Source: Pegea sp. RAD2-039 (lineage: Eukaryota > Chordata > Thaliacea > Salpida > Salpidae). Taken from it: a stretch of DNA of 64,000 nucleotides. Position numbers and translations under genes: made by a program. The first letter of the stretch is position 1. Every line of letters starts with the position of its first letter. The notes beneath the pieces were generated by a model. That model did not search any database, was not told the DNA's origin, and saw only the letters and a program-made list of their open reading frames with translations. The stretch lies in assembly GCA_034620365.1 (NCBI GenBank), contig JAQGEQ010000071.1, positions 2,232,001-2,296,000 on the forward strand. The letters are read 5' to 3'. Shown one piece after another: positions 23,370 to 54,067 of this stretch.

Positions 23370-24239
23370 ATGGAAGAAACCTCTAGAAACTTTCGCTTGG
23401 CTTATTATGGAAAAGTTGGTTATAAGAATGCATTTAGAGATCAAGCTATACAAGAAATATTCCAAGATCATATCGATGAAAAAAAAGTTTTAAACTTTTG
23501 TCAACAATTTTCAATTCCATCAGCGTATCGTTGTAAAGTTTGGCAATTATTATTGAAAATTTTACCTTTTCATTCTATTTGTCATGATTATATCAGTTTC
23601 CAGTTTGAAGAAAAGTTTAAAATACTCGATAAAACTTTGGATTTATTAGAAATTAATAAAAGCTATATAGATGGAGATATAAATCATAAATTTCTAAAAC
23701 TTTATTTGTTAGAAAATAACTTACTTGGTCTAAAGTTTTATCATGAATCCTGGCATAGTTCATTCAAGTCAATATCAACAATTTCTACAAGTTTATTTTC
23801 ATCAGCTTCAACTGCCTATAAAGTCACATGTACAATTTTTACATTTTTTCAAAGTGGATGTCATTTAAGTAAAACTTATCATGAAGAAGTTAAGAATATA
23901 CTTCAAAAAGAAAATGTTGAGCTTTATAAACATATGACAGAGTTAGATGTTCTGCAAATAATTCCTTTTGATAGTTGGGTTAGATTCGCATGTGTTGATA
24001 TCATTCATTATAAGGGAAGTATAGAAATGATTTGGGATTTTTTATTTGCATCTAAACCTGTGATTTTAGTTTATGTTTCTGTATCGATACTTTTGCTCAA
24101 TCATAATTTACTTTTTAGTAAAGAATCAAGTGAAGAAATCTTGGAAATTTTTTCAAAAAAGCCATTTTCTATAGATTTAAGCCAAGCTATTGTCAAAAAA
24201 GCTTTAAAACTTTATGAAGTTCATGAGAACATTCTCTAA
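23370..24239 (+). CDS. TBC1D7: TBC1D7-like, third subunit of the TSC complex
   Basis: In vertebrates TBC1D7 binds TSC1 and stabilises the TSC1-TSC2 complex that restrains Rheb and mTORC1. This 289-aa frame matches the 293-aa human protein over its length: RNFRLAYYGKVGYKNA at the N-terminus, then FSIPSAYRCKVWQLLLKILP (the shallow TBC start), IPFDSWVRFACVD, IEMIWDFLFASKPVILV and a C-terminal SQAIVKKALKLYEVH. The TBC fold is the short atypical one without a catalytic arginine finger, as in the family. The coding region is one exon. The stop is only 198 bp upstream of the next gene's ATG on the same strand, with no AATAAA seen in the gap. Confidence 0.85.
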   Translation: MEETSRNFRLAYYGKVGYKNAFRDQAIQEIFQDHIDEKKVLNFCQQFSIPSAYRCKVWQLLLKILPFHSICHDYISFQFEEKFKILDKTLDLLEINKSYIDGDINHKFLKLYLLENNLLGLKFYHESWHSSFKSISTISTSLFSSASTAYKVTCTIFTFFQSGCHLSKTYHEEVKNILQKENVELYKHMTELDVLQIIPFDSWVRFACVDIIHYKGSIEMIWDFLFASKPVILVYVSVSILLLNHNLLFSKESSEEILEIFSKKPFSIDLSQAIVKKALKLYEVHENIL

Positions 24240-24437: not shown

Positions 24438-26137
24438 ATGAGCAGCCAACAAAGGTGAATTATAAATATTTTTTAATTTTGTAGAAAATTTAACAACAAT
24501 TTTCAACATTATTATATTGAAATAACAAAACTAAAATTTCAAATATTAAAACAAATATTATTTTAACAAAAATCTCAACTAACTTTTATTACAGTAATCC
24601 TCAACTGCGTTTTCCTAACAATGAGATCTTTAAAGTGGGAGTAATTGCAACTGGAGGTGGGATTCTTTTCGGATATGATCTCGGAATCATTTCAGGAGCA
24701 TTAATTCAACTGAAAGTTTTTTTTTCACTCACATGCCTTCAGATTGAGTTAGTTGTTGCTTCAGCACTCTTTGGTGCTTTGTTAGGCTCTTTAGCTGGAG
24801 GATTTATCATCGATTGTATAGGAAGACGACTGAGTTATCTGATGTCTTCAGCTATATTTCTCATTTCAGCGATCATTCTCATATTTACTCCATCTTATTC
24901 AGTTTTAATCTTAGGTCGCTTCTTAGTAGGTTTTGGAGTAGCTTTAGCTTCTGCATCTGAATGTATTTATGTTTCTGAACTTTCACCTACAAACATTAGA
25001 GGTAGTTTAGTTTCATTAAATGAAGTTGGAATCGCGACTGGTTTTCTGGTTGCATATGCAGCTAATGCTTCTTTCTCAGTTATCAAGGACAATGGTTGGC
25101 GATATATGTTTGGTTTACCTTCATTGTTTTCAATAATAACCATCATGACCGCAGCCAGACTACCAGAAAGTCCCAGATTTCTGATAATGAGTCGGCGTTT
25201 TATTCAAGCTCGAAAAGCTTTGACAAAAGTTCGTCGTAGTCAGACTGACGCTGAAAAGTCAGCTGTAGAGCAAGAGTTCCTCGCCATGAACTTTATTGAT
25301 GATGAAGTCACTACTCCAAGTACTACGTGTGGTCGCATCAAACATTTTTTCACTCCTTCCCTTATCATAGGAAGTGGTTTAGTGTTTTTCCAGCAAGCTA
25401 TAGGTGCCCCTAACCTAATGTTCTACGCATCAACAATTTTTCAATCATTGGGTTTTGGTGATGAGACAAGCGCTGATTTAGGTGCAGTTGGCCTTGGCGT
25501 GGTGAAAGTGCTTACCACTGTATTCTGTTTGTTGATAATTGATAAGTATCGGCGGAAGTCGTTTCTTCTGGTCGGCACCATCACCATGCTCATTTCACTT
25601 TTCACATTATCAATTATTTCTACTTATTTTACCTTCATTCCATCTGATATCTGCCAAGACAATTTCACATCTTTAAACACTTCATCAATAAATATCACTT
25701 CTTCTGTTCATCATCTAACTTATCCTGTTGGTCTTAAGATGGCTTCCTTTATTTCTTTGATGGTTTTTGTCTCAGCATACGCATTTAGTTTTGGTCCTCT
25801 AACTTGGATCGTTCTTAGTGAGATATTTTCTGCTAGATACAGAGGCAGGTATTTCTCGGTGGTAATCGCTATGAATTGGATTTGGAATTTGATCATATCA
25901 TCAACTTTTTTAACTTTTGTCAAATCAACAAATGGTTTGATGGTCTCTCTGATTATGTATGGATCAATTGCTATTCTTGCTACCTTCTTTATTTTATATT
26001 TCATTCCTGAAACTAGAGGAAAAACTTTAGAAGAAATTGATGCTTTAATGACCACATGGCGTGGCAATTTTAGCCCAGAATTAATAAGTTGTTGTCAAAA
26101 AGAACCAGATTCGTTGTCACTTCCACTTATGAGTTAA
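24438..26137 (+). CDS. SLC2A10/12-like facilitative sugar transporter
   Basis: Major-facilitator hexose carrier of the plasma or internal membranes. Exons 24,438-24,454 and 24,595-26,137 give 519 aa; the tiny first exon (MSSQQ plus two bases) is chosen because its phase joins the AAT-CCT frame at the acceptor tttattacag. Twelve membrane segments can be traced. Family motifs are present: GGGILFGYDLGIISGAL, DCIGRR, GRFLVGFGVA, YVSELSP-NIRG, LPESPRFLI, FFQQAIGAPNLMFYAS, IDKYRRKS, GPLTWIVLSEIF, and PETRGKTLEEID. The long extracellular loop between segments 9 and 10, with NFTS, NTSS and NITS glycosylation sites, and the QQ-G-PN-MFYAS wording point to class III (GLUT10/12). Assignment to one of these is not possible by eye. 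Confidence 0.9.
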
Positions 26138-28361: not shown

Positions 28362-31300
28362 TCAATCTTTTTTCAAAAGTAAAGTTTCCAATAAGCTTAG
28401 AGGTTCTCGAGATTGTTCAACATCAGAAGAACTGTTTACAGAAGAAAGAGCAGAGATAAGCGATTGTGAGGTTAAAGGAGATGTTGTTACAGATGCAGTA
28501 TACTGAGAGGACGAGACCTCAATTGAACTACTTAAACCATTGTTATTATTTCGGTTGGCATTATTGATAAGATCCGAACAGGGGTTTATCTGCTGGATGT
28601 TATTACAAGTGATAAACGTTTGATCTTCATCTGGATATTTTCTTCCTATGGTCGCCACACTTCCAGGACCTTGTATTGAAGACATCATTATTTGGTTTTG
28701 ATTCAGATGATTATTGAGATGTGTATTGTTGTTGGTTGGAAGCTAAACAAAGATCAAAAGTTACAATTTGATCAAGTAGTATTTAATTAAAGTTAAAAAT
28801 AGTTGATTATTTACTTATATTTCACCTTGTTATCATATGTATCTACCCAGTTGTTAACTTGATACGTGTTTATATCTGAGTTTACTTGATGCACACCAAG
28901 CTTTATAAAAAAGTTGGAATTGACTTTTAGATTTTCAATTTTATTTCTACCATAAATTCTATTATTTAAGTTTTGGTTTAAAATCGTTTTAATTTTGAGT
29001 AAAACTAAATTATTTAAAACTGAAAAATTTTCGTTTCAATATTATTTTATCAAAAAGTTTTTGAAAGAAATAAAATTGTTGAAAAAAGTTGTGAATCTTT
29101 AAACAGATTTCTCGCATGCAAAAAACTTAAATAAAATTCTTTCTATTTTCAGTATGTTGCAAATAATATCTGTTTTAAAGCAGCTACCTGTTCACAAAGT
29201 TTTGTTTGAGATTGAGGATAAACTTGTGAGTTGATTGTTGGATTATTTTGTAACGTATTTCCAGGTATTAGTGTTGATGAAACCATTCGAGGAGTTTGGA
29301 TAATGGGTGCCTGTGAACTGACCGGCTTCTGTATCATTTGGTTGCTTACATCATTATTACACCAAGAATTGTCTTGAATGTAGTTGGTAGTGACACACGA
29401 AGGTTGATTGGTCAGATGTGAAACTGGTTTGTGACCATTTATACGTGGTATAGGTGAGAATAATTGAGGTTGATAACAAGCTGGTTGATTTTGTGTGAAT
29501 GTTTTCCATCCAATACCTGAACTTGTAGTGTCTGCCAATGAATTGATGGTTTTCTTTTTCTTTCTGGTGTTTCTAATTCGTTCTTTTGCTCGTTTATTTG
29601 GAGATGTAGTATAAGCAAAGTTATCTGAAAAAAATGTTAAATTTTTCTACTTTTAAATAAAAATAATTAAAAACCTTGATTCACTGGTAGACAATTGTTA
29701 GGAAGTTTTTGTACCATTGGTAGTTGACTGTAGGACAATTGTGGTGTCCCTGAGTTTATAATTTAAACAGTTTTTAAATAAGATGAAACAATAAAAAAAC
29801 GTTGATAGGTGTAAGAAGAATCAGTTATCATCTTCATCTGACCTTTTTTAATCCTAAATAAATCATTTTAGTAAAAACAGATGTAAAATTTAAACATGAA
29901 ATTAAACTGTCAACAAGTTTACTTAAAACATGACGAAATTTGATGAGTGATTTTCATCACTTCAAAACAACAATTCAATTTTCATTTATATTCTTCAACT
30001 TTTTGTCAGTTTGTATATTTTAATGACTAAAACAAATTTCAAAACATCACTAACATGCCTCTAATTTGCTGATTTCAAATTTTAACGACAGATAGGATAT
30101 GAGGATATTAAAATCAGTTAATTGGAAATCTTCCAAGACGGCTTTTGTTGTTACATTTAATGTGACAAAATTTGAAACTTTCAAATTTGTTTTTTTCTTC
30201 AATTCAATCAACAATCATTTTAAAGAAAACAAAAAATTCTCTATTTTAATATTTCTAAATATCAGTAATTAAAGATTTTTTTACAAAAATATAAATAATA
30301 AACAAATATAATTTTGTTGCTGAAAGGGAAAATGCAGAAAATAAAGAAAAAAATTCATTAAAAAAACTTTTAATGAATAAATTTCAGATGTTTTTCAAAT
30401 GATGGTTTCACAAATTTTCTAAGAAAGCAAATATTAGGTAATTATTCATTAATTACAAGTTGATATGATCATTAATTACCTGTAAATTGTACAGAATTAT
30501 TCTGGTTGTTAATTCTATGAGTTGAAATAAACCTTTGTTGGTGCTTTTGTATGATATGCTTTCCGTCAGGTAATCTAACAATAAAGAATAATTGATAATG
30601 AAACAATAAATGAATTCAAATTTCAAACTGAATTTAAAAAGAAGTTTTATTAAACCTCTTCTCTCATAGATTCCTCTTTTTAACAAACCCAGGTTTGCAG
30701 ATAAAAATTTTAGATTTATAAAATTTTAATATTCACAAAAACAAATCAAAAATTCTAAAAAATTTCAACATAACTTCCTCACCTTAATCTGTGTCCATAT
30801 GTTTGTGGTGAAATGGGGTTGTTAGATGAATAAGGCTGAGAAAATCTTGTTGGACTACTACCCATAAAAGGTCTTTGATTAATTGGATGTTGGTTTATAT
30901 TCGGCCTTAAATTTTGGTCTATATCATTACGCCAAGGTTGAGGTTGATTAAGACGAATCTGAAGCTGTGTAGAGAGCATATAATTTATATTTTCATTTAA
31001 TTATATTTCAATTTTGTAATTAACAAACTACAAAATTCAAACTCACAAAAAAATTTTCTTAAAAACTTAAAAATATTTATTCAAGAAAAGTTCTTAATTG
31101 TTTTGATTAAAAAATATTTTATGAAAATTATGTAGAGATCTAAATATCTGAAATAAATAAAGATTTTTTTATTTACTTCAATTAAGTTAGAGGAAAAATG
31201 TGTGACATATGAAGTTTGTAAAAAGTCAACATCTTTCAAATATTTTCAGTTTTTATCTTTTAGTAAAAAATATTCCAAAAGTTGATCAAACTGACTTCTT

Positions 31301-34300
31301 GCGATTTCAAAATATGTTTTTATAAAAGTTTAAAAACCAAAAAAATATTTTTGTGAAATTTCATATGAAGTGAAACAAACCTGATATCGGGCATGGTTGT
31401 TGTTGGTACACGAGTTGCCAGAGGTCGGAGGCTACAAATAAAAGCAAATTTTACTGACAGCTAACCAACAGAAACCAAATTATTGTTATTCAGAAATTTG
31501 GAAGAAAATATTTGGAAGATATTAGCTTACTACAATGTAGGTAACATTCTGATTGATTCGAGGTACTTTTGGTTTAGTTTCACGAAAGTTTGAAACCATT
31601 TTCGGCTAAAAAGATTACACAAAAATTCATTTAAGAATTTAGAATCGATTTGGTGATGAAGAAAGATCACCTGATTGATGTAGTTGTTGATGTGCTGAGG
31701 ATTCATCTGAGGATGATGGAGATTATTCGCTAAAAGATGAAGAAAATAAAAATTGTCCAATCAGATTCGAGAACTAGTTACCAGGAAGACATGTTGAATT
31801 GTTGCTAGGATACGGAATTGTCATCCGAGGATTGATCCCTGCGGGAGGTGGGACTGCTCCCAGATCAATAAGAGGTTCCTGACCTTCACATCGCTCTAAA
31901 TCCAATCCAAAGAGACCAGAGATACGATTGATCTGAGATTCAGGATGCAAGAGACTTCCGTTTTGAGGAGAATGAGAAAGTTGAGTGCTGACAGCTCCAT
32001 TGGTGTTCACTACCATATTTGGACATCCGTTGACGTCAGACGACAAGATCTTGTTGCCAGGATTTTGTTTCAGTGGATTGAAGATGATATTGTGGTTGGT
32101 TGGTTTGGAGGCTGACTGAATTTGAAGTTTCTTCGCGTCTGTTTGCGAACAAAAGTGATCACGTGATTAGAGAGATCAGTAAGAAGTTACCTAGATCAGG
32201 ACGTTGGACTTGATGTGGAGAACTAAAGCTGGATGGTCCGTTCTGCTGATGAAAGAAATCCCAGTTTTTTGATGCTTCTCATAAAAATTGAAACAAACCA
32301 TTTGATGAAGAATCGGGATGAAGTCTTGAGAAGAACCAAGAGGTGGATCTTGCTGATCAGTATCCTCCGCATCAATAAAGTCTCCCAAAATCTCATTGAG
32401 TTCATCTAATTCTTCCTTACTCAAATCACCAGCTCCAAAATTCGATTGGAGATTAACTCCTTGTTGATCTGTATTACTAAAGGAGCTGAACGGAGGACTT
32501 TTTGGCTCAGATGCTAGGATTTGATCCTGAGGTTTATCTTCTTCAGTTTTAAACTTGCCGATCTTGCTAAACATATGCTCCTTAATCAAGTCTTCCGATG
32601 ATCTTTTCTCTGGGGATGTGATCTGTTTGGAGAGCTTTTCATGCTTTACATCCAGATGATCAACTGATGAACTTAAACTAGAAATATCACCACTAGGGGG
32701 AGTATTATCGGAGGAGCAAATAGGATGAGATGGAAGAGAGGTTAGGGGTCCTTGAAGACTGGAAGAAGAGAGAAATGATGAGGAAGAAGGATGTCTTTGG
32801 CGATCTAGGGAGACTGGAGAGAGCAGAAGATCACTATTAAGGAGATTGGGTTTGTTGAAACTATCTGAAAATGTTCTTTTGATTCTGTCTTCTTGGGACA
32901 CATCAATCTCTGAAAGATCAACGCACGGAGGACCAGGATAAGTAGCAGGATTGTTTAAATGTGTGTCTTCCATTAAACAGCTTTCTGTCAAATACAAAAA
33001 GTGAAAAAAAATTATTTTCAAAGAAGTTGCTACAAACCGTCGGAAGACAACTTGCTGCAGTAAGAAGAGAAATTTGAAGTAGATGAGATGATCGGATCAC
33101 AATTATTCAACTGGATGTTGCTCCCAATTGAGTGAACCAAGTATCCGTCTAGATGAGGTGGAGGCGAGAGAACTGAGTTTACAATCTCCTGAGTTGAGAT
33201 CATTAAGAAATATGTGATGAAGATGACACAATGACTTACTTCTGTGTCAACATCGGCTCCGGTGCTGATCAGAAGTTCTTTGACGACTTTGGCACTATTT
33301 TGTTGGCGCAGAAATGAATTCGACCAATTTCGATGGCTTTTAATGGGAAAATTGTTCCGCTGCTGTACAAAACTAGATTAGAAAAAATTCTCCAAAATGT
33401 TATCAGAATTTTTGACAATATTCAACTATTTAAGAGCAAATCTTTGCTTTAAAACCAACAAATTGTCAGAACCTTTTCAGTAAAATATTTTATTTTCACT
33501 GAATTTTTACAAAAGTTTAAAAACAAGAGTTTGAAGTAACTCGCTTGAGAGATAACTTTCAAATGAAATTTCAAAAAATTCAATTTTTAAACAAAATTTT
33601 TGAAGATAAAAATGAAGTTACTTTTGGTAGAGATGTAGGGTGGACTGTTTTAGATTTGATTGGAGGTATTTCAGATAAGAACTTTACTGGTGATGGAGAA
33701 CAGCTCTTTAGAAGTTCAAAATCATCTAGTTTTTCAAGACCATATTCTATAAAAAATTGATGAAATTAAACAAAATTAAAAAGTTAAATTTCATAACTAA
33801 GAAATTAATCAAAATAATTAGCAAATTAAGTTGTTTATTCTTTGCTAATATTTAGTTATTTTCAACCAGATATACTTATTAATAGATAAACTTTTAAAAG
33901 TTCAAATTTGCAAAGCTGTAAATAACAAAAATAGAAAATTTTATGTTTAATTCTTTTATGACATCAACTTATGAAGTGATGCAATGATAAACAATGTCAT
34001 AAATAAATAGAAGCTTATTACTACTTTTATATTTAATCAAAACTAATTTGTTTATCTTAAAACAAAGTTTTGATAGTTACAAAATATATATTTATCTTAT
34101 TGCTACTGTAATAGCTAAATATTGTTAAATTAAGATTATTTCGCTTGGTTAATGTTACAAACAAATTACTTTTGATTAGAAGCTCAAATATACTTACCTA
34201 AATTATTTGACCTTGTTCTATTTGGTAAGCTGTTTAAATCAAAATGATTCAAAGCTCCATCTCTAGCAAAAAGTAGATTCAAATTTCAGTTCAGTTATAT

Positions 34301-37300
34301 ATAGCGAGTTAAATATATACCGCTCAAGTAAATTTATAAAAATAATTTTAAAATACTGTTTGGTATTTTCTAAATTCAGATTTACAATTTTTATTAGTCT
34401 AGAAATTTGTTAAAGAAAAACAACTAGTTATTAATTGAACAATTTAAATGCAAAATACAAAAGATGTTTTCTTCTAAGAACTGAAAAATTTAAATTCTTT
34501 ACTTTCTGGCTTTTGTAACTAAAACAGAACTGAAATAATAACACTATCTGTTCGTGAAAGCTTGATTTAATAGTGGAATAACTTTACCTGCTTACTTCTA
34601 TAGCTTGTCACTTGCAAACAGCACGCATACTAACTGACGTAATTTCCGTTTTGTCATTTATATTAACTAAAAAATTAGAAAAGTTGTAAAGAAAAACGTG
34701 ATCATAAATCAAGGGTTAAAAATGGTCTAGAAAATTGACTTCTAAAGATGCAATTGATCCCTGATTAGATGTAGTAAACCTCCTTATTAGGATTACCCAG
34801 TGACATTTAAGTAGGGGATTAAGGAAACAATTTAGTTGTTTAACTGGAATCTAGTTCATTCATAAAATTGTTACTACTATAGGATATCCTTTGTTTACTT
34901 TTAATTTTTACATTAGAAGCTTATAAACAAAGTTGATCTACAATTAAAGTGGTTTGAATGATTCTAAGTTTAACTTGCAGTTGCTTAATTTAATCAATTA
35001 AATGTACCAAAAAATAAATAAAAACAAAGTATCTTTATGAGAAATATTTTCTTGCTTAAAATGTAATCTAGTATTAGAAAAATCAAATAGCTGACATAAT
35101 TCAAATAAAAAAATATTTTTATAAATAAAGAATATGGATTTGTAGAAGACAAAATAAAGTTAATCGTGATAAATAATTGAATTGTGAAGTTGCCAAGTAT
35201 CTATAAAGAAAAAAGTTTTAAAATAAATGCTATCAATGTAAAAAATAGAAATTTATATCGATATGGTAACACGTCACTATAAACAACTTTTTCAAAAGAC
35301 ACATGCAGCTATTTGTAGAGAATGTGAAAGAATAGGTTTTGAAACATCAGTTTTTATGTTTCGAAACAACATATATTTGCGAAAAAATGTTTAAACTGAT
35401 AACATCGATATTTTAATTTACATATTGGTTTTTATGAATAATAAATTACTAATAAATGTAAAAGTGACTACTTAAATTAATTTAATCGGTTTTATGCTAT
35501 TACAGCTGTTTTTGTATTTATTAATCACTGATAAGTTGTGATTATAACCTTCTATATGTTTAGCTTGCATGTCAAAGTTCTCACAAAAACAAGATTTTGT
35601 TTATTAATTTTAAATATAAACAAACAAATAAAAACACGTAATTAAAACTGCAACCAAATAATGGTAGATTATTTATGATATTCAAAATCTAGTGAAGCAA
35701 TTAATGTTTATTATTATTTCACAAACTTTAAACAAAACCTGCAAACTTATTTCACAAAGTTAAAAACAATTTTCTTGAAAGTAATATTACGACATCAGGT
35801 TTTAAACAATCGTAATTTAGCAAAATAATTGAATTTCAGAAAGAAAAAATTCCTCGTAAATTTCGTCAACCGCAAAATAGTTTTGATAGTTATACGAGGT
35901 ATGCAGGGTAGTTTAGTTATCTGTAAATATGAATACTATCCACCAGTAATACTGGAAAAAGAGGATTGGTGGAAACAGTAGAAATTCTAACATGACAAAT
36001 CGCAAAGCTTTTTGATTTGAGTTTTTAGTTGGTATGATCGAAATAATAAGTTTTGATTTTTTTTAGATTAAAAGTAAAAAGGTGACTTAATAACTATTAG
36101 TCGAATAGTAACCATCACAATAAACAAGAAAATTAATAAAAATTCCATGAAAAAGTCAACTTTTCATTTTAATCACTTACTTGTAGATGTGATGAACTGA
36201 AACTACGAATGGTGGTTCCTGCTTCTGGACATTTGCAACAAACTTACTTTTTGTAAATGCAGTAACCGACATACCATCAGATAATTGGAACTTAAACTGA
36301 CAACTTTTTGCTTCACCTTGACTAACAACTGCAACAAAGTTGAAAGTTTGAAAAGTGATATATAATTCAATTCTTTCATCTCTATTATTTTATTTGTAGA
36401 TTTATTGTTTTCAAATCTTTTTTCGTTGATATTATAAATTTTTATTTAACAAAATGTTTAATTTTTTAATTCTTGACGAATTAGATATTTGGTTAAAACA
36501 TAAATATTGGATAAATAGTTTTTATCTACAAATATTTATATCAAAAATTAATCTATTTAATTGTTATTGAAAATTATTTCTTTAATCATTTTAAAAATAA
36601 ACAGCTTTAATAAGAAGCTTTTAGACAAAAATAATTTTAGATACAGAAAAATTGTAAGCTATTTTGAAAATCTAAAAATAATTTTAGAATGAAATGCATG
36701 GCATCAGAAATCTGGCTTATAACTTCCTTAAAGTTTTTATAAAATAATAAGCTGCTAATACAAACGAAATATATCAATTCATACTATCAAATATAAGTTT
36801 AATGAATATATAAATTATCAGCCAACTAAATTTTGAGATTAACATTTCTTAAACGAATTTTTAGCTGGAAAAACCAACTTTTGATGTCAATTTATTAAAC
36901 CACTAAAATCTAGTGGTTTAAATACCCATAGATAATAAAAACACTTAAAACTAATCTTTCGCACATAAAAGTAAAATTAAAATAGTTGATAGAATTTCTT
37001 AAGAAATTGTAAAAACCTTTGGTATGTAGAGTTTGTGCAAGTGAAGAACCATTGGTTGAAGATTTTGTAAAAGCTTTTAGGTATCTTTCAATCATGTCTT
37101 CTTTACATGGCAACATCTGCTTATCATAAACCAGAGTCATCTTTCCTTTTAATAAAAGTTTATTTATTTGTCTTATTGAAATTGTTGAGAAAAAATTTGA
37201 TAAAACAAAATGTTGTGACTCATTTTCTAATAATTTTATTTTTGAAACATTTGCAAATAAGCAGCTTTCTAGATGCACTAATGAAAACTAACTTTGACTA

Positions 37301-40300
37301 ATGGGTCAAATTACAAAAAAAATTATATTAGATGAGAAACTGTAAAAATTGAACTATAGCTAAGGCACAAAATTTACAAAATAAAGTAATTAAAAACCTG
37401 AAAGTAATCGGAGAATAGATTTCTGCTTAATTTTTTCAGATTTATTTAGGAACTTATTTACAGTAGTTTTAAAGCTTTTTTTTAAACTCTGAATTTGTTG
37501 AATTATAAATAGTTTTGATGAAAATAAACTGAGTAAAAGAAGTCTTCTGAAGAAGAATAAGAGATTATATTGAAGAATGCAAAATTGTCAACATCTTATC
37601 GTATGAAGACATTTATTATAAGTCTGAAATAAACGAAAACATCTATGGAACAAAATTGAAATATTCTGCTCGTCTCAAACTTAATTACTAACTTTGATTG
37701 TTCAGTTACATACAACTCCAGAAAATTAGATCGCTTTATAAGCTTAAAAAACTCCTGGGTCAGTAACAAAAAGAAACCAAAAAGTTGTAGATGGTTAAAG
37801 TCACTTAAAAAGAACTACACAAAGAAGTAAGTAGTTGATGATGTTAAAAAACATTCTGAATATTTAATACGTAAAACTTCTGGTATTCTGTGAGGTAGAA
37901 AACATTGTTTGGACTTTTAATTTATTGAAAAAGTTACCCAGAATTTCATATTTGTTGTTAGCACCAACAACATTTGTGATTCAAAACAAATAGATGTCAA
38001 TAAAGGTGAAGTGAAAGAAAAAGTTCAAGATGTAAATGTTATAAATTGAAATTAGGAGGTTGTAAGACATCAGCAGCTACTGATACTAGTCTGCTTTTGA
38101 AGATGATAATAATTTTGATGACTTGATAAGGTGAGTATTGATTTTTAAATTATAATTTGACAAAAAGTTTCTTTATAAGCACTACTAGCAAGTATTTTGT
38201 AAGACAGATGAAAATTAAACTTTCATTTGGATTGATGTGGCAGTTAATAACACAAGTAGAAAAGAATTGAACAACAAATTATCGGATCAAAGACTTCATT
38301 CCAATTTTACTTGACAGTATAATTGATCAAAAAATTAAATAAATTTGTAAAATTGAAATCAGCAAAATGATTTATAAAAGAATTGAATTGAAAAGCAGAT
38401 AACTGAAAATGAAATTTTTATTTGAAAATGATTTATTTCAACTTTTTAGAAACTTAAAAATTATTTCAACTGAAACTACAAAGATATCAACAAATGGTTG
38501 CAATCTAGTTCAAGTAATTTCCACATTTTCCTTTCTCAAAAATATCAAATTCAAATCAATTTCTTATAAGCTTTTCACTAGGCTCTTTCAATTGTAGGAA
38601 GCTTAAACGATTAAAAAGTTTACAAAAAATTTCCTCGACAAAAACAGCTTACACTGAAAACAAAACTCTGGAAATAGTTAAAGTCTCAAGAAAGTTGGGA
38701 ATATTTTCAATTATAAAAATATCTGATAATAATTTCTAATAATTGTCAACCTAATCGCTGCCAAAAGTGTTTAAAGTAAAATTACGATAAAAATTTGGAG
38801 ATCTTAACCTGATATTGTCTGGTGCGTCATAAATGTTTCAGGCTCGGGTATTTTGCCTCTTGTATTGATGGTTTGATTCGGAGGTCCTTTTAGATCTTCT
38901 GAAGTTTCGTTACAAAGATTTGAAGCTTTGGAAGGTGATATCAGAGATAAAAACAAATCTGTAAATAATATAGTTTAGCAGGTTAGTTGACTTAGTGGAA
39001 ATAAAAAACTTTGAATTAAATTCAATTCTTATCAAATAAACAATTTGGCTTTTTCTGCTTTTCAATTATTTGATTTAATTTATTTTCAAATTCAGCTTTT
39101 GGATTTGATAAACTTTTGGTAATTTCAAGAAAAAAGGTTAAATACAAATCTTAAAAATACCATTTTGATTAGAAGACGTCGAACTGTGAAGTATTCCTAC
39201 ACAATCCATAAAATTCGATTCTTTTACTACTTCATCGTCAGTTTGATTGAAATGAAAAAAGATCGGTTTAGAAGATTTGGAGCTTTCTGTAGAAGAAAAA
39301 GTGAAAAAAAGGATTTAATTAAAGAAAAAAAGCTAGTAACAAGTTCCTAGTTTAAAGATATTTCAAGAAATTGATTAATAAATAACTAAATGTAGAAAAT
39401 AAAATCAATAAAATTTGATGGTTTAAAATTTTCTTGTTTCTTAGTCGAAATCGGAGTAAAAATAAGTTGCAACTTCATTCATTAGACTTATTTTTGGTTT
39501 TCACCAGGATTTTGCCATTTTTAATCAGAATAAATAGAATTGTGGAAGTAGTGAATATAATCAATCTAAGATTCTAAATTTCTTCCAAATACTTCTTCAG
39601 ATATTACAATGATTGAATTTGATTTATTCTTCAAGTAAATAATAAAAAGTTTTTCAATTGAAATATCCGAAAGTGTAAATTATTTATAAGAATAAGAAGA
39701 ACATTTAACGACTTTTATCTGAAACTCGTTCTATTAAAATAATCAAATAGACGTTTTGAATTATGAAAGTTTGCTAATATCTTATTGAACTATAAATTGA
39801 AATTTTCAGGACATATCTAATCAATTTAAAGACTTGTTTATAAAAAAAAGGAAAATTTACCAACTATAGGTAATTCAATTAACTAATTTCTATATTTTAA
39901 CTATAATTTGATTTATTCTAAAAAATACTAAAGAAAGAATTCAGTTTTAACTAACACACAAATTTATCCAAGTTTTTATTAGTAGGAAAATAGAAGGGTG
40001 ATTACTGGTCTATTTTTAAGCAAGTTTACAATTTATCATGGAAAATTATTCATTTCAAAAATCCTACAAACAATAAATATGGAAAGAAAATGAATCTTAA
40101 AAAGTTTTTATTTATCTTATTAGTAACTCAACGTTCAGCTTTGTAAGAAGAAAGACTTAGAAGGTAAACCTGTAATTAACTTAAGTTCATTCTTATAGCA
40201 TATCATATATAAAAGGAATTCAATTTGAAGAGTTACAAATAACATTGTATTTAGAAATGAACAATTTTATTTAATCAAAACTAATAAAAGGATGAAATTT

Positions 40301-43300
40301 AGTAAAACCTGATTTGTGGGAATTGGTTAGCTTCTTCATCTGCTCATCATTAAAACTTGGAAGAACTTTATTCAGTTTCATGCCAATAATATTTTGCTGT
40401 TTAAAAACCCAACATTTAAATATAAAATTGATGACAAGTATTTTTATATATCTAATGACAGTTGATTTAATTAAAATATCGCCACCATGAGGAGTAAAAC
40501 ATTTAAAAGCTCAAGCTAAGTAGCTAAAAAGATTATTTAAACGCTTAGGAAGATTTTACTGATTGTGAAAATTAAGTTAAACTAAAAATGTTTATCATCG
40601 GTTTAAAAAAATTAGTTTTACTGATTTCATAAATTACATCGAGATAAAAAAGCAAATTGTATTTATAAAAATGAGCTTCTATCTGTAAATGCAGTTTTAG
40701 AAAATGTTTAAAGTAATCTAACGCTTTTAGGATATAAATCAAAGAATCGATTCTTGAATTGAATTTAGTTTGGAAGGTGAATATTTGATTTGTAATATAA
40801 ACTTATAAAGTTATGTTTAAACTTAAAAGTTTGTAAAGTTGATAGAAGAAATCTTTTATTGACAATATAAAAGTGAAATCACCTGATTTATTCCAAGAAA
40901 GTTAGTGATATTTTCAGAAGCATGGATACAAGAATCATCAAGTAAATTAGTGACCAATAAGAAGCAGTTCAATTTCTAGTCCAACGAAAGAAATATTTAT
41001 TTAAATTTAGGATTATTAAGGCAAAGAAAAACTTCATCAACTTTGAAAGTTTAAATTAAAAAAAGAAAATAAACGAAAAAAGTCCATCTTAGAACATTTA
41101 ATGAACTATTTATTAGATTTCAAATTTCTAATATTAAATTTTTTAAGTAAAAATTGATTTAATTTTATCTGATAGTTTATATAAGATGATGTAGGTATTT
41201 AGAAAACGAAAAATTATTTTAGAAAAAGTTTGCAACAAATTTTTTTTGTTGAGTAGATTACAACATCAATTCCAATTCAAAATCAAACTTTCTGATATCT
41301 ACTTACCGAGAAAATTGTGTTTAATTTTTCTTCATCTTCTCCATCTTCTATAAATGTAATTATTTTTACAAATCTTTAGATCAAACTTTATAATAAACGT
41401 CGTTTTTTATCTTTATCAGTTTAAATTCAAATTTATAGAATTATACTTGGTAACCAATAAATATTTATGAACAAAAAACTTCCAGATATTAGGAAAGTAA
41501 TAAACCAACTTATTCATATATTATTTTTGGCTACTTATTTATATCATTTCAAAATGCAAGTTTAAATGTTTCATTCTGATAAAAAATAATCAATTTCAGC
41601 TTGCAAAATTATAAATATCATTTTTTAAACCAATTAGCCAATAAAACTAATTGAATGCTTAAAAATTGTATGCGATGTCTATAGACTAGCAACATTTTAT
41701 GAACTCAACTTATTGCAGTTACTTAAGAAGCGGCAAGTGTCTGCAAAATAACTTATTTAACGCTATACATACCTGATATTGAAAGACGAACTTCAAAAAA
41801 GCTTTTGATTTCTTTGAAAAAGTTCTGACAAGTCTGAAACGATTTTGAATATTTATAAAGTTTCAAATTTAAATTATTAAAACTAATCAATTTATCACCT
41901 AGAATAAGTAAAACTTTTCCTTGATTAATTGCTTAACAAGATGGTTGTTATTGTCTAAAGAAAGGTGTTTTTAAACACCGATTAGTCTTATTTGTATGAA
42001 ATCTCTCATGTATAGTTGAAATAAATTGTTTTCGTTTTACACTATCTCTATACAAACAATTTACAACTGCTAAAATTTATTTTCCAGCCTAATGTTTGTT
42101 TTATAAGACTAAAAACATTGCCACCAGAATACTAAACATAGAATTAGTCAAATCAAGTAAAAATTATTTTTTGATGTCTTAGTGTTGTTTCCAACCAAAT
42201 ATAGCGTTGCAAAAGAGAACAAGCAAAACTTTTTACAACAGAAAAACTAGAAAAAAATGTTTTCAAGTAATCTATTCGTCATTAATGTTTTCTGTTGTGG
42301 CTTCTTGTACAAACAAATGCTCCTCGTCAACATCTATTTCAGGATTTTTATTCCTTCTAATAAAATCATACAGAAGAAGATTTAGAAATGTTAGAATCAT
42401 GTTTTATCTAAATCAAAAGATTCTGTTTCTAAAAGAGTCGCGTTTAAATAAATTAGAGATGGATTCTGATAAATATGATGTACTGATCAAATATTTATTT
42501 CATCATCTACTTAACTACAAAATAAGTCTTTTAAAATGTAGATGCCAACAGTTTAAAAAAATAATATGAAACCTTTTTGTTTATATAAAGATCAAATTAA
42601 AATAGCGATTAAAAAGAAATCAGAATAAAATCCATTAATTTTTTCCAAGTTTTTTTTGGGGGATTTTCACAAATACGTTTTAATAGATAGTTACTCAAAA
42701 CTTTTAATAATAACAAAATTAATTTGTTTAATATTTGTAATTATTTGTTATCTAACTTAAAAGTGTGAAAAACTTTGTAAACAGTCTTTTCATTTTTCTG
42801 AAAACTGTTTAAAGTTCCCTTTAAATACTATCTGTTTAATTCTTCTGTCATTTTGCAAACAAAAATTAAAATAGAAATACAACTGTCAAAAAACCATCAA
42901 CAAAATTTTCAGCTTTCTTAGAAACAATTCTTGAATTTAAGTGGGATAATTAGCTTTATACCAAAGATTTCCAACGTGCTATTTAGGAAATCAAACTTTT
43001 GAACAGTTATATGCTGAAATAAAAACTAAATCAAGTTGAGATTGCAGATTAACTAAAAGTTAAGGAAAACGCAACCAAAAAAATGTAACCACATTTCAAT
43101 AGACAGATAAGTAACCTTTCTCAACAATACTCTTAAGCAAATCTGGCATATTTAAAAAATTCAACTTCACTACTAAAAAGTAAAGTAATTAAAAGCGGTT
43201 GTTTCCAAAGGTTGTGAAAAATAATATTTTTAACAAAGTTAACTCAAATCTAAAGTATTACGTGTAATTTAGAACAACCACAAAACAACAAACATAAATT

Positions 43301-44595
43301 AACCTGTTTGCAAATCTCATAATTTTTTTTCTCAAAAATTCAAAAAGATTCTTTTAAACATATTTTAAGCAAGAAAATTGTAAATGGTTAAATCGAAAAT
43401 AATTTCAAAATTTATTAATAATTACAGAGAAAATCAATTCTTAATCCGTGGTAAACAAAACTAAATTGCAACTAATCATCAGAAGAGAACTTACCACAAT
43501 TAGAAATATTACAACTTTATAATATGTTCTTTAATTTTATAATAAAAAAACACAAACATCAAATTAATTCTTCATTTTAATGACTCAGCAAAATCTGTAT
43601 CTGAGTTATTTAGTAACAATAAAAAGGATTACGCAACAAAAGTAGGTCCAAGCAAATTTACCAAATTAGTAGATGCAAACATTATTGTTAGTTTTGTAAA
43701 AGTTATAAAAGTTGGTCAAGTGGCTTGAAGAATGTCTGTATTGAAGTGTAATAGGTTTATGTGAATAATATCAAAAGATGGCAAAAGTACTAAAAGAAAA
43801 CGTTTGTTTAGATGAAGATGGTATTATTGGTGCATTTTTGATTTAAATCAAAGACTTCTGTGTAATAATATATTCTTTGAATAATATACAAAGAAAATAA
43901 ATAAATAAACTTGATACTTTTTCCAAGAGCTTTGCTACTTATAAATTTCGATATTATGACGATTGACAAACTTCAAATAAAGTTTATAATCAAAAAAATT
44001 TCAATTTAGGAAAACTCCAGCTCTTGTGAGCAATGAAATGAAAACTTCATTAAGAAACAAATGAAACCAATTTAAGCATAAACATGCTTTTTTAGTTAGT
44101 TTACAAATAAATTGGATCAAAATGTAATTGAAGAAGATATAAATAAATATTTATAAACTATAAATCTATTATGAAATATTTGTAGTTTTAGTTGCAAAAT
44201 ATTAAATAATCAATTTGTGAATTGTTATCAATGATAAACATCAAACTAAAAATCTCTTTAACTTTTATAATAACAAAAGGAAATTTGCTACAATCCAATC
44301 CAATTTAAAGCAATCAATTTTAAGATGTATAAATTCTTTGTATACTTTATATTGTAAGTTTTCAAACTGTTTTATTGATTTTAAGGATAAATAGTTAATA
44401 ATTAACGATGTTTTATAACAACAAAAACTGATAATAAATGCTTTTTTAACTACTATTCAAAACTAACTTAAGAAAATCTACTATAGTACTCACGCTAATA
44501 TTTTCTTCTTTTGAATTTAAGCTTTTTATGGAAGAAAACTTTTTCAAATATTCGATATCTTTCCTGTTGTTATTGATTGTTAGTCTTGTATCCAT
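28362..44595 (-). CDS. NCOA: p160 nuclear receptor coactivator (NCOA/SRC/Taiman family)
   Basis: bHLH-PAS transcriptional coactivator recruited by nuclear receptors through LxxLL motifs. Exons 5' to 3': 44595-44494, 41833-41773, 41347-41307, 40975-40883, 40396-40309, 39286-39161, 38958-38809, 37145-37017, 36328-36181, 34262-34198, 33746-33622, 33362-33240, 33188-33038, 32984-32299, 32245-32191, 32138-31782, 31729-31671, 31605-31531, 31431-31381, 30964-30783, 30574-30533, 29727-29675, 29624-29188, 28900-28826, 28742-28362. Every junction is GT-AG with matching phase; total 3855 nt, 1284 aa. PAS-A: LNCFLLVTNLLDD, SENITNFLGINQ. PAS-B: EPETFMTHQTISGKM, EDMIERYLKAF, FQLSDGMSVTAFTKSKFV. Then KVVKELL, EELDELNEILGD, LQIRLNQPQPW, and a C-terminal LETLL. 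Human members are about 1420-1460 aa. The bHLH (exons 1-2) is short and degenerate. Confidence 0.87.
37400..38800. other. long intron of the p160 gene, possible old insertion
   Basis: Most of the 1.66-kb intron between the exons at 38,809 and 37,145. Slightly less AT-rich than other introns at 37,500-38,100, which may be the remains of an inserted element, but no protein family could be read on either strand. Confidence 0.3.
42000..44490. other. first intron of the p160 gene (part)
   Basis: The 2.66-kb intron between the exons at 44,494 and 41,833. A + strand frame at 42,207-42,569 has no family similarity and low-complexity composition, so I leave it uncalled. No clear extra exon could be fitted in phase. 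Confidence 0.4.
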
Positions 44596-47500
44596 CTAAG
44601 AAATTTAAGTTTAAACTAACTATTAAAATCTTAACTATGATTTAAATTCTAATAGGATCTAATTGAAAGATGTAAGAACCTATTTTATTCTTTTAAACAA
44701 TTAAAATTATAAATATATTTTTCTTATATAAAAACTCATATAACTATAATCTATTTTGATTAATTATCTTCAAATTTAATCTATTAGTATTTTAAATACA
44801 TTTTGAAAATATTTTTAAGCAGTAACATTGAAAATCAATCTAAAAATAGAAAATTATTTTTAATAGCTTTGTGATAAACAAACAAAAAATTACTCAATAT
44901 TTAAATTAGCTTTATAAAGCCAATGTTTTAAAACTTTAATAAAAACTGATTTTAGATTATAATAATCAAATTATTTCTAAGATCAAAAACAAACTTACAT
45001 TTGTCAAATATTACTACCAGTAAAATAAGGTCGAAGTTATATCATTTATAACCAAATTAATTCTTTTAAAACATGTTTAGTATTTACCTTCATATAAATT
45101 CAAAATAACAGTTCTTAAGTTTCTGTAAAAGCATACAAAATTCTTGGTCAATTATGTTTACTATAGAAAACTAATAATCACAATTTATAGATACAATAAC
45201 AATCAGTTTATTCAATAACAAAAATTAATAAAAATTCTTTAATTAAAAATCAATTTGCTAAAATGCATTTTGCTTAACATTATAGATAAGTGAAGATATA
45301 TTAAAAGAAATAATCTTCTTGAAATTAACTTTCAATCAACATTTCATAAGAAATTTAAAACTATTTCATTAAATTTCATCATGACGTTTACAAAAAAAAA
45401 GAATTTAGAATCAATTTCTCATAAAACTCAAAAAAATGAAAACTTTTTATATATAATATAAAATATATAATATATTCTATAAATTATAAGTTTTAAAATG
45501 AATTTCATAACAATATTTTATCCAAAAATTAAACCTTTAACTTATATTATTAAGATTAAGAAGTAATTATAGTCGGTTTATTAAGGTACGAAAACTTTCA
45601 ATGTTAAATCTTTTCAAGATAATAAATCTTTTATACAATTTAGATTGCTTTATCAACATAACAACAAATTCCTTTTTTTCATCTCATGTCTACAGATAAG
45701 AAAGTATACCGCTCTTAAAGTGAACGCAAAAGAATACTATTGCAAAATGATAATAAAAAGGTATTCAGTATCATAGTATAATACAATTAATATAGATAAA
45801 TAAAACCAGTACAGAGGCAAAATTATCTATAAGTTATAAATATAAAAAATATATGAAACAAATATTTCATAGTTCTTTCAGTAATAAACTTTTTAAGATA
45901 TTTTTGACATATTTAAAAGAATTGGTGAAAGTGAAAAGAACAAATCAGTAATGTAATAATCATAAATAGTTGTTATAACTCTTATACTTTTCTTTCTTGA
46001 ATTCAAATAGTTTACATAAATTCATTGTTTACATTAACAGATAGAGTTTTTAAACAAATCGCATTTTTTTAAATATCAAAAACATTAAATAATAACAAAC
46101 ATAGTGATAACAATTTCATTTGACAAGTATAACAATTTCTACATGATTCATGACACATTTTGCTAATCTTTATGAAGAACAGACAATCTAACATTTAAGT
46201 ATTACTTTCATAAATATCTTTTAACTAAATAGTTTTAAAAAAAAAATTTATTTCAGCTATTATTTTAAGAAACTATTATTTAATGCACCATGAAATGTTA
46301 TTAAAATGTAACATGTTATTACAAATTGAAAAAATTAACAAGATTATTGGTTAATTTAAAAAAATAATGTAGTATAATCAATAACTTAAAACGTCAATAT
46401 TAATATATACACTTATGTCACCAAACATACAAAGGTATTTAAACGTAATTATTTTAAGTAGTTAAGAGATAAAGGTTTTTATACTGAAAATTAGATAATG
46501 GTTCTGAATACTTTGTCTTTTACAATCATTAAAGTAATTATAAAAATCTGTATTAGTTAAGAAGCATGGGCAACTCTGTAATTTTATGTAGGTGCTTGTA
46601 TATTTTATTACAAGTTAAGGGGATTTCCCAAACTAATAAAAACTAGAGCAGTTGTTTTGATTTATCACTATCTTTATCACTAATTTTAAAGAAAGGTTAG
46701 TTGAAAAATAAATTAATCAAAAAATAGCAAATGAAAAATCAACAAACCAATTATAAATATATTTTTTTATATGAAAAAATAATACGGTGAAACGAATTTT
46801 TTATAACTTATTATTGTAATCTATCAGTTTATAATCTTTTTTAAAATTCGCATTGTTGTTTTTAGCATGCCATAAAGTATTGTTTCAAATATCGTCTTTT
46901 AAACATGATAAACCAGCTTATGATTTTTTCAAACATTTCATAGACTTATGAAAGATTTTTTTATCTATATTATTATTATCCTCTTGTGTCTGATTTTGAC
47001 TTATTGTAAATTGATGAATATATTGAATTTAATAGATGATGAGAAGCAATTTCCAAGCTTATAAATTTCTGATGACACTGATACAATGGGTATAATCGCT
47101 AATTTAAGTCATTTTACAAACATTCAGTCTTAAAATAGAGTACTTTATCAAGTTAATACGGTTATACAATAACAAAGCAAAAAGTACATTCAAAAAACTA
47201 CAACAGCTTACAAAATTATGATTATGTAACTATTTTGTATAAAATAAAATATCTTCTTTGATGTAAACAATTTGCTTCAATTGTTTATCGATCATCTTTC
47301 ATAAAGCTTTACCAAACCCCTAACTGAGTCGGGAGACTAGTACCTAAAAGTTACAAAAAACGAAAAGCATATAACTATTCTTTTTAGTTTAAGACATATT
47401 TTTGTGCATATTTTTGTATCTAGTTATTTTTACGTAGTTAATTCTCGAAAGTTGTAAGTAGTATTTATTGTCTGTAGAACGAAAACTAGACTAGTTGTCT

Positions 47501-49903
47501 TCATACAACCTCAAAAACTTGTAAAAACGATTACCTTAATAAATCAACAGAATGACACTGGTCATTTAATTCATTAGTTTTAGAAATGATAAGTGCGGAA
47601 TACTCACTCACTAAACTAAAAAGATTCTACATGTAAGTATAACAGTCTGCTTATCTAAAAGATAAGAACAATCAGTACTTTTATGATTTGATAGTTTTTA
47701 ATTTTTAAAGCTCTTAAATTTCTAATTTTTAATCTACAGCTTACAATCAATATTTTATTTCTTAAATGGATATATTAAGATTTTTTTTTGATTAAGTAGT
47801 TTTTGATTTGGGGAAATTAAACCTCGTCTTAGAAACACAAGACAATCACAGACATAAAGATGAATATTTTAGCTTCTATTATGACTAAAAGCTTATAAAT
47901 TTGGTTTGGTGATATTAATTTCCATAATCGACCTGATGATAGAAAAAAGTTGAAGATAATTGTAAATTAATAGCTTACTTCAATTTTGTTGAGCATTTAT
48001 TAAACAGTTATTCATCTAAATATGAACACATTAAGATGCTTTACTTAAAGTTTACATAGAAACTTAACAAATTCCAATAATCACAAAAAAATTTTTCCCG
48101 ATGTTGTTTTTCCTACAGTATAGTAAAAGGGTGAAAAGAACTCTTTAAATGTAGAACTAAGTTAGATGATTTCTTATATTTCTTTAAAAATAAGTTTTCA
48201 CATATTATGATGAATATTTTGAAAATAGCTAAATTTTAACCAGTGTAGATTTTTTTACTACAGTAAAAAGCCAAAATCTTCTATATTTACAATAACTAAC
48301 GGAATCATAAAATGTTATAAAAGACTGTGAGCTGTTTTGTTTAAGATTATTTCTTTAAACAAAGTATATATAAAATTTAATAAAAGTACATAAGTGATTA
48401 TTGATGACAAAGTTGGATTTTGATAGCTCTCTTATTTAGTTATTTTAACTTGTGGGTGTTAGAGTTGTAAAATATTTACAAAACTGTATAAACTACTTTA
48501 AAGTTTACTTAAAACATTTGAAATTGCAAGTATACATTTGTTTAATATTTATTTGAAAATGTTTGAGATATGTGTTTTTTTTGATAAAGTATGCTAAAAA
48601 ATCGCAACACAATCAAACTATTGATTGAAAACTGATATTTAGCAATTATTTTTAGAACATCAACTTAAGTAAATTGAGAAAGACGCTAAACTGCACACTC
48701 AACCTTTTTAGGTTATTCAGTTTTACAATTAAAAAACAAGATTAAAAGTTTAAAAAATAATTAAATAAAACTTTAGGAAACCAAAGTCTCAATTTTTTTA
48801 CAGTATTTCAAGGAGTTTAAAAGTCTAACAAACAATTTAACAGCAGCCATTAAAAATTTATAATTTGTTGCCATCTAAGAATTTTTTTTAATAATAACGT
48901 TTAAAAAACCTTTTAGATGCAGGTTAAATTTAAGCTTAAATATTGATATCAATATCATTTAGTTGATTAATGACCAACCAAAAGAACAAACTATTTTTGA
49001 GATTACCAGTGACAGAAAAAGGATGTTTTACTAATACTTAGGGTTAGAAAAGAGACAAGACTTTTTTTTAAGATGAAACAACTAAATAAAAATGTTTAAT
49101 AAAACGCTGCTCTGCAGAAAAATAAACATACTTGAAAAGCAAAGTTCAAATTGTTTATATTATTCGATAAATTAGCCAAAGATAATTCTTTTTTAGCTAT
49201 TTCGTATAATGAAAATTGCGTCTTTGTCATAAAAATGTTGCTGATAAGAAACTTTGATAAACATTTTAAGCAATCTTTTATTTGAAACGTATTTATTTGA
49301 GTCTGTCTGGAATTGCAAAAATTCTACTAATACAATATTTAAATATCTGAGCTGATAGATTGTTTTTAAAATAAATTTTACATATAACCATTAGGTTTAT
49401 AAAATCATTTTTAAGTTTTTTTGATGAAGCTTGTTCACAACTTAAATTTGAGCTTTACTATAGGTACAACTATAAATTATAATCTAAAACATAAATTGCT
49501 TAAAATATTTTTGAAGTATATGTTATACTGCAATAAAATTATAAAATACAATTTTATTTGTATTATTTTGTAATTGCTTGACTTTAATTAAATCCTAAAA
49601 ACAATTGTAATAGCTTAGGGAATTACCCATCAAGAAACATATTTGTTTACCATTTTATCCATGTTTTTGTAATTTAAACTAATTAAAAAATTACTAACTA
49701 ACCTTTAAAGTACATTAGAATAATTTTAGGGAGATTAAATTTGGATAAAGTTTTAAGTTTTTTGAAATTCAACATAATGATATATAATTCAATTCTTTAT
49801 GTTTATTAATTTCAATTACTATTATACCAAATAGACTGAATCAATAAAGTAATACTTGATCATATCAACTGCTTGATCTGATAATAAGATTATAGGAACG
49901 AAG
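44596..49903. other. 5.3-kb gene-free AT-rich region
   Basis: The largest gap in the window, between the divergent p160 (-) and alpha-glucosidase (+) genes, so both upstream control regions should be here. I found no open frame over about 60 codons with similarity, no RNA gene and no clear tandem or inverted repeat. Confidence 0.5.
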
Positions 49904-52900: not shown

Positions 52901-54067
52901 GTAACTGGCTCTAAACTGAGTGACAAAACCTTGTGTATGTCTGCTCGTCATCATAACTACTCACATTACGACGTTCACAATTTATATGGTTTGTTTGAAA
53001 TGAAAGCTACGTATAAAGCGCTGGTGGAAATTCGTAACAAAAGACCTTTTATAATATCAAGATCTTCATACCCTAGTACTGGTCATTATGGAGGTCACTG
53101 GACAGGTGATATCAGTAGCACGTGGACTGATTTGAAACAATCAATTGTCGGCATCACAAACTTCAATTTGTTTGGAATTCCTCTAGTTGGAGCAGATATT
53201 TGTGGTTTCGGCGGCTCGACTACTGAAGAGCTTTGCATCAGATGGACACAACTAGGAGCTTTTTATCCATTTAGTCGCAACCACAATACCATTGGAGCCC
53301 GAGGACAAGGTCCTGTTGACTTTTCAAATGCAACTCAATCTATTATGAGAAAGGTTTTGTCAGAACGCTACAAGTTTCTTCCTTATCTTTACACATTATT
53401 TTATCGTGCTCATGTTAACGGTACAACTGTGGCAAGAGGTCTTTATTTTGAGTTCCCAACTGACAGATGGTCACTTGTTAATGATGAGCAGTTTTTATGG
53501 GGACATGCTTTGATGATAACACCAGTTCTCGTTGAAAAGGCGACTTCTACCATCGGTTATTTTCCACCAGGCGTTTGGTTTGATATTTATCATGACTTTG
53601 GTTATGCTATAAACAGCATTAATTATTTCAGAAACTTATATGCTCCTTTAGAGTTGATTCCACTGCATATTCGTGGAGGTTATATAATCCCAGCTCAGTT
53701 TCCTGCTCTAAACACTGTTAAAAGTAGAAAAAATCCTTTTATACTTTACGTTGCTTTGAACTCATCACAGCAAGCATCTGGTGAATTATATTGGGATGAT
53801 GGAGACAGTTTAAACAGCATTGAAAATGAAGAATATGTTTTAATTCACTTTATAGCCGATGATAATTGCTTAAGAAATCAAATTATTCACAAGGACTCTC
53901 AATTTACTATCAACTTGAGTAAAGTTTATGTTTTTGGTTTGCAGTATACACCAAGCCAAGTTACTAACAATGGTGAAAATATTCAGTTTCAAATCTTACC
54001 TAATAATGTCTTAGAAATTTCTTCATCCATGTTTTTACAAAATGAATTTTGTATTAAGTGGAATTAG
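49904..54067 (+). CDS. secreted GH31 alpha-glucosidase with trefoil domain (GAA/maltase-like)
   Basis: Hydrolyses terminal alpha-1,4 glucose units. Exons 49,904-49,986, 50,794-50,947, 51,011-51,331, 51,464-51,725, 51,779-51,969 and 52,454-54,067; all phases join; 874 aa. A signal peptide (MLLQIAFILLMINHSMS) leads into a P-type trefoil domain (RIDCFPE, CADRGCCYD, PWCFYPSN). The GH31 N-domain follows (LYGVGER, the YW-LGFH-CRWGY block), then the catalytic barrel with nucleophile Asp458 in WIDMNEPSNF and acid/base Asp556 in GGHWTGDISSTW, and LVGADICGFGG. No transmembrane anchor is seen, so it is lysosomal (GAA-like) or secreted digestive; length is nearer one GAA or one maltase half (about 900). 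The first intron holds a SINE; the last exon carries over half of the protein without interruption. Confidence 0.95.
50285..50690 (-). mobile_element. tRNA-derived SINE, copy B, in alpha-glucosidase intron 1
   Basis: Read on the minus strand, the tRNA-like head is at about 50,690-50,600 (CGGGTTCCAGTCC, GGCGGACACATATTTG), and the body at 50,560-50,390 (GGTGCAGCTGGATCAG, CTGTTCTGCTG, CTACATGGGCAAG). Block order equals that of copy A at 17.3 kb; similarity by eye is roughly two thirds, so the copies are old. It is inserted antisense to the host gene. Confidence 0.75.
51970..52453. other. alpha-glucosidase intron 5
   Basis: 484 bp, AT-rich, no repeat or coding signal seen. Confidence 0.7.

Follow-up and report, generated by a model that had tools for sequence, protein, structure and literature searches.

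The p160 coactivators are a link between hormone receptors and chromatin, and in this family the PAS region generally docks partner proteins, LXXLL motifs bind the AF-2 groove of liganded receptors, and enzymes such as CBP/p300 are brought in by the tail. In arthropods the family is represented by Taiman/Src, a p160 with both PAS-A and PAS-B, which is reported as probably a single-copy gene in crustaceans (PMC12897451); no published p160 from a non-arthropod invertebrate, such as a rotifer or a flatworm, was found in the part of the literature searched. Here we describe a locus on the minus strand of a 64,000-nucleotide (nt) stretch, referred to below as the window (bases 2232001-2296000 of contig 1 in a genome of 105.7 Mb and 387 contigs), which we take, with a probability of about 0.8, to be a coactivator gene of the p160 family (SRC/NCOA/Taiman) from a fast-evolving bilaterian whose genome is small and AT-rich and yielded no other p160. 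Its predicted protein resembles NCOA1/SRC-1 in the PAS-B alignment, in the order of PAS-A followed by PAS-B, in its long tail, and in an LXXLL motif at the extreme C-terminus, which may have a counterpart in SRC-1a. It differs from NCOA1/SRC-1 in that neither a bHLH nor a central LXXLL triple was detected and no CBP-binding CID could be recognised, and compared with arthropod Taiman/Src it again lacks a detectable bHLH and central LxxLL. The PAS-A/PAS-B fold is held in common with ARNT, HIF, CLOCK, and AHR, but the PAS-B of these proteins is unmatched here up to E 10.

The p160 identity is supported by PAS-B. Against Pfam PAS_11 the PAS-B exons reach 1.7e-9 as first joined roughly by hand and 4.8e-8 within the whole protein, both better than the curated cut-off, and when PAS-B alone was compared with PDB chains at E up to 10, four matches were obtained: NCOA1 twice (3.8e-8 and 7.2e-8, with an alignment spanning approximately 100 residues) and two plastid proteins (0.73 and 0.86). 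Within the same limit no bHLH-PAS chain besides NCOA1 was matched, ARNT, CLOCK, HIF, and AHR included, so that the family call of the sequence-only reading is upheld and the placement with ARNT or CLOCK that it had named as contrary evidence is not what this search returned. The PDB search does separate the bHLH-PAS classes, because two control loci of the same genome fall into classes of their own: L002, an ARNT, matches ARNT2 and ARNT at approximately 1e-29, with further matches to BMAL1, HIF, PER, and CLOCK, and L004, of the HIF/NPAS class, matches HIF and NPAS proteins. A search of the genome with PAS_11 at E up to 1 gave five matches, namely the single p160-like locus, the two controls, and two further loci (L005 and L006), the class searches covering the first three. 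PAS-A lies N-terminal to PAS-B and matches Pfam PAS_2 at 4.3e-6, over the cut-off, and PAS at 0.0043, under it.

The gene model consists of 25 exons running from 44595 to 28362 (Table 1), with all 24 introns GT-AG, the phase continuous throughout, and a single terminal stop; the hand-fixed version measures 3909 nt including the stop and encodes 1302 amino acids (aa), so the chain, splice sites, and phase of the exons proposed earlier were recovered and the total of 3855 nt was not. Exons have a GC content of 37.8% versus 23.3% in the introns, in a window that ranges from 21.7% to 30.5% in 4-kb steps. The in-frame coding score is above 0 in 24 of the 25 exons, and stops interrupt one alternative frame in 21 exons and the other in 24. 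Measured against 883 background 99-mers, which overlap, are free of stops, and come from non-coding sequence, the scores of exons 4-6 are reached by 1-4% each and that of exon 21 by 10%, and the codon signal is strong in the tail exons. A dynamic-programming gene finder, which combined generic splice weights with codon scores trained on other long open reading frames (ORFs) in the window, returned 36 minus-strand exons between 48850 and 28362. Of these, 19 share their borders with the final model (exons 3, 4, and 7 and the unbroken run of 16 from exon 10 to exon 25); the remaining 17 differ or seem spurious, and the 5' part of this output is interrupted by one in-frame stop where two exons join. 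The two models are not independent, since the gene-finder output and the earlier reading guided the one made by hand. Exons 3-25 are mostly well supported, with exon 21 weak. Searches of the window with Rfam at the gathering threshold and for tRNAs found none.

Several observations weigh against the p160 assignment or against the model that carries it, and are gathered here. PAS-A alone has HIF2a as its best PDB match (0.018), with HIF2a, HIF1a, and CLOCK weakly matched at 0.018-0.11, and it shows sub-cut-off Pfam matches to the unrelated families Folliculin_C (0.00029) and Herpes_UL95 (0.0093); it is recognised only as a PAS fold and not as p160 class. The whole joined protein, compared with Pfam at E up to 10, returned the PAS families and a weak, sub-cut-off Folliculin_C only, with no NCOA-specific family outside PAS_11, although the HMMER filters may drop weak matches, and neither the acidic block nor the C-terminal tail matched any NCOA chain in the PDB. 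The check with hidden Markov models (HMMs) proposed for the joined protein has therefore confirmed its PAS families and nothing NCOA-specific beyond PAS_11, and the suggested succession of PAS-A, PAS-B, and later p160 blocks holds for the first two, PAS-A as a fold, and is unsupported for the rest. No match to the HLH family was found in exons 1-6 or in the three minus-strand frames of 44401-50202, where an HLH split by an intron could escape. The number of LXXLL motifs is itself at chance level, one being present and 0.83 expected per whole protein in 20,000 shuffles. As regards the coding signal, an alternative frame scores higher than the chosen one in six of the 25 exons, containing a stop in exons 1, 5, 17, 21, and 22 and free of stops in exon 19, and the first two exons score like background: the value for exon 1 (-0.9) is matched or beaten by 25% of the 99-mers and that for exon 2 (0.1) by 18%.

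It is at this 5' end that the earlier description of the gene as complete proved unjustified, because exons 1 and 2 lack a coding signal and rival exons lie within intron 1. The AG directly 5' of the exon 1 ATG may serve as an acceptor for splicing or trans-splicing. On the minus strand of intron 1, a terminal-exon candidate at 42356-42272 has a coding score of 12.4, the best among the candidates of a scan of 50.3-41.3 kb in which first and last exons were given flat bonuses, and a first-exon candidate at 43149-43116 (MPDLLKSIVEK) has a coding score of 4.1 and a phase compatible with exon 3. These candidates may belong to a small nested or upstream gene, or may provide an alternative start of the p160 gene. 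The terminal-exon candidate is coding-like and ends in ...EEHLFVQEATTENINDE.

With these points weighed, the locus is most likely a real, divergent p160 orthologue of a known family, with its 5' end unsettled. Two genes could have been wrongly joined, a PAS protein comprising the exons up to 9 and a Ser/Asn-rich protein comprising exons 10-25, and both the 1918-nt intron between exons 9 and 10 and the absence of an HMM match tying the tail to p160 fit such a junction; we nevertheless hold this to be unlikely, as the phase is compatible across it (2 to 2), a long tail is expected of a p160, and exons 10-13 are free of methionine, so a separate downstream gene would require an extra upstream coding exon. 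The PAS-A matches to HIF2a, HIF1a, and CLOCK agree with an origin in another bHLH-PAS class (ARNT, CLOCK, HIF/SIM, AHR, or MET) or with a lineage-specific PAS protein, and PAS_11 is common to many bHLH-PAS proteins, among them those of L002 and L004. That origin becomes quite improbable in view of a PAS-B which, among bHLH-PAS chains up to E 10, finds NCOA1 only, while the two control loci match their own classes strongly. A decaying p160 pseudogene, which the divergent sequence and the unrecognised domains might bring to mind, is hardly credible for 25 exons that show neither a frame break nor an internal stop, whose introns are GT-AG in 24 of 24 cases, and whose tail retains a strong codon signal.

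The tail has the Ser/Asn/Pro/Gln-rich composition expected of a p160: residues 345-1302 contain 13.6% S, 10.5% N, 9.2% P, and 7.8% Q. The one exact LXXLL of the 1302-aa model lies in the C-terminal SLLETLLLKKD, and only its position is notable, because shuffling yields 0.83 such motifs per protein and 0.0076 in the last 15 residues. Imperfect receptor-box-like stretches occur as VTNLL, VKELL, and LNEIL, no central LXXLL triple box was seen in the model, and within introns 9-12 (1918, 451, and 259 nt) LXXLL is confined to open stretches of 5-49 codons; missing exons in these introns are possible. A 59-aa stretch of exon 16 tested as a CID matched nothing in Pfam or the PDB. This is no argument against p160, because the CID is not identifiable in protostome NCOA according to a published account, which also places the NCBD in both protostomes and cnidarians (PMC5419745); among protostomes, then, a p160 without CID is the normal case.

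The candidate partners are present in the genome, as nuclear receptors and a CBP/p300-type histone acetyltransferase (HAT). CBP/p300 is found at one locus, with three HAT pieces at one place and with reading frames that were named by eye as bromodomain-, ZZ-, and TAZ2-like. No NCBD was recognised there by eye in the plus-strand open stretches of at least 40 codons within 10 kb around the HAT, where shorter or split exons could escape notice, and an NCBD search gave no match but was uninformative by its own measure; a missing NCBD would be unusual if real. By analogy with the family, we infer each binding step from the domains present: the PAS region would dock transcription factors that act as partners, LETLL, as an LXXLL helix at the C-terminus, would fit the AF-2 groove of liganded receptors, for instance the animal's own RXR- or RAR-like ones, and the presumably disordered tail would bring to target genes both CBP/p300 and the machinery of transcription, via contacts other than CID-NCBD. 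One C-terminal box would imply that receptor contact is made at a single site instead of by a choice of three. A stripped-down p160, with neither bHLH nor central triple LXXLL, with one C-terminal box and with the NCBD of CBP/p300 lost, coactivating through a rewired minimal interface, is a tentative extension of the p160 assignment that we regard as rather doubtful.

The wider gene complement bears on the lineage of the host. At E up to 0.001 the genome gave 100 zf-C4 and 13 receptor ligand-binding domain matches, exon pieces and tandem copies each being counted singly, among which we take L034 to be RXR-like, L038 RAR-like, L009 COUP-like, L007 HR96-like, and L016 NR5-like, as named by eye from characteristic signatures after HMM family matches. 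Homeodomains gave 71 matches at the same threshold, 30 of them with loci, and include what we presume, again from such signatures, to be two Hox-like genes of the posterior class, both on one contig (L047 and L049), and Hox1-, 2-, 3-, and 4-like C-terminal pieces; no match was found to a Lox5-motif pattern, nor to patterns for mitochondrial cox1 and for the end of the 18S rRNA. Because of the RXR-like and RAR-like receptors and the posterior-class Hox-like genes, these sequences indicate that the animal is a bilaterian, and the proposal of an early-branching p160 finds no support. A rotifer host, to which a published rotifer RAR (PMC6947571) had pointed, is unlikely, as rotifers are reported to lack posterior Hox genes (PMC5431905).

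The receptor survey brought to light further arrangements. L080 (G000:C150:4501-14500) consists of a unit of approximately 4.17 kb repeated head to tail, which carries an 87-aa ORF for a nuclear-receptor DNA-binding domain (DBD) and a 448-nt 28S rRNA fragment (RF02543, model 958-1388). The 87-aa frame occurs in 19 rows of near-equal score on 12 contigs, the letters having been read for some rows only; besides C150, the contigs are C138, C144, C288, C291, C294, C297, C311, C324, C326, C349, and C350. Receptor-like ORFs of approximately 400-640 aa, with one zf-C4 match each, are found at L037 (C183) and on C48, C212, C238, C204, C341, and C223, and in the L037 copy, the sole one read, a stretch of the N-terminal region is repeated. 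At L043 (G000:C77:226861-231653), two RAR-like receptor genes stand inverted approximately 4.4 kb apart, a pair that could be an assembly palindrome.

Table 1. Exons of the candidate p160 gene and neighbouring features, in window coordinates
Feature	Position	Strand	Residues (aa)	Remarks
Exon 1	44494..44595	-	1-34	doubtful, without coding signal; ATG immediately 3' of AG
Exon 2	41773..41833	-	35-55	doubtful; splice sites good, coding signal absent
Exon 3	41307..41347	-	55-68	leads into PAS-A; gene finder and coding score
Exon 4	40883..40975	-	69-99	PAS-A; within Pfam PAS_2 match; gene finder
Exon 5	40309..40396	-	100-129	PAS-A; missed by gene finder
Exon 6	39161..39286	-	129-171	end of PAS-A match and linker; border 4 nt off gene finder's
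Exon 7	38809..38958	-	171-221	linker and start of PAS-B; gene finder
Exon 8	37017..37145	-	221-264	PAS-B; PAS_11 and NCOA1 match
Exon 9	36181..36328	-	264-313	PAS-B; alone exceeds PAS_11 cut-off in genome search
Exon 10	34198..34262	-	313-335	gene finder and coding score
Exon 11	33622..33746	-	335-376	gene finder and coding score
Exon 12	33240..33362	-	377-417	VKELL, imperfect receptor-box-like stretch
Exon 13	33038..33188	-	418-468	gene finder and coding score
Exon 14	32299..32984	-	468-696	Ser-rich; acidic block ELDELNEILGDF
Exon 15	32191..32245	-	697-715	gene finder and coding score
Exon 16	31782..32138	-	715-834	tail; CBP-binding CID tested, unmatched
Exon 17	31671..31729	-	834-853	rival frame scores higher, stop-containing
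Exon 18	31531..31605	-	854-878	gene finder and coding score
Exon 19	31381..31431	-	879-895	all three frames open
Exon 20	30783..30964	-	896-956	Gln/Asn-rich
Exon 21	30480..30574	-	956-988	coding score weak
Exon 22	29675..29749	-	988-1013	rival frame scores higher, stop-containing
Exon 23	29188..29624	-	1013-1158	gene finder and coding score
Exon 24	28847..28900	-	1159-1176	gene finder and coding score
Exon 25	28362..28742	-	1177-1302 and stop	terminal SLLETLLLKKD, sole exact LXXLL
Sec1 family	18677-20659	+		Pfam
RabGAP-TBC	23364-24236	+		Pfam
Sugar transporter	24521-26134	+		Pfam
Glycosyl hydrolase 31	52454-54064	+		Pfam
AXH-domain piece	57831-58049	-		Pfam
UBR-box protein	60370-61602	-		Pfam

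Several of the neighbouring genes consist of one long ORF each, unlike the p160 gene with its many exons, and positions 3311-3874 of the window hold a 33-bp tandem array of approximately 17 copies with long open stretches in several frames.

As a plain orthologue, the p160 candidate would chiefly be of value for annotation, since simple ORF calling would miss the gene. If the stripped-down form were true, a p160 orthologue in which neither the bHLH nor the central receptor boxes remain would reveal what the family can do without, and this case of loss would be set against 100 nuclear-receptor DBD matches in the same genome, pieces and copies counted singly.

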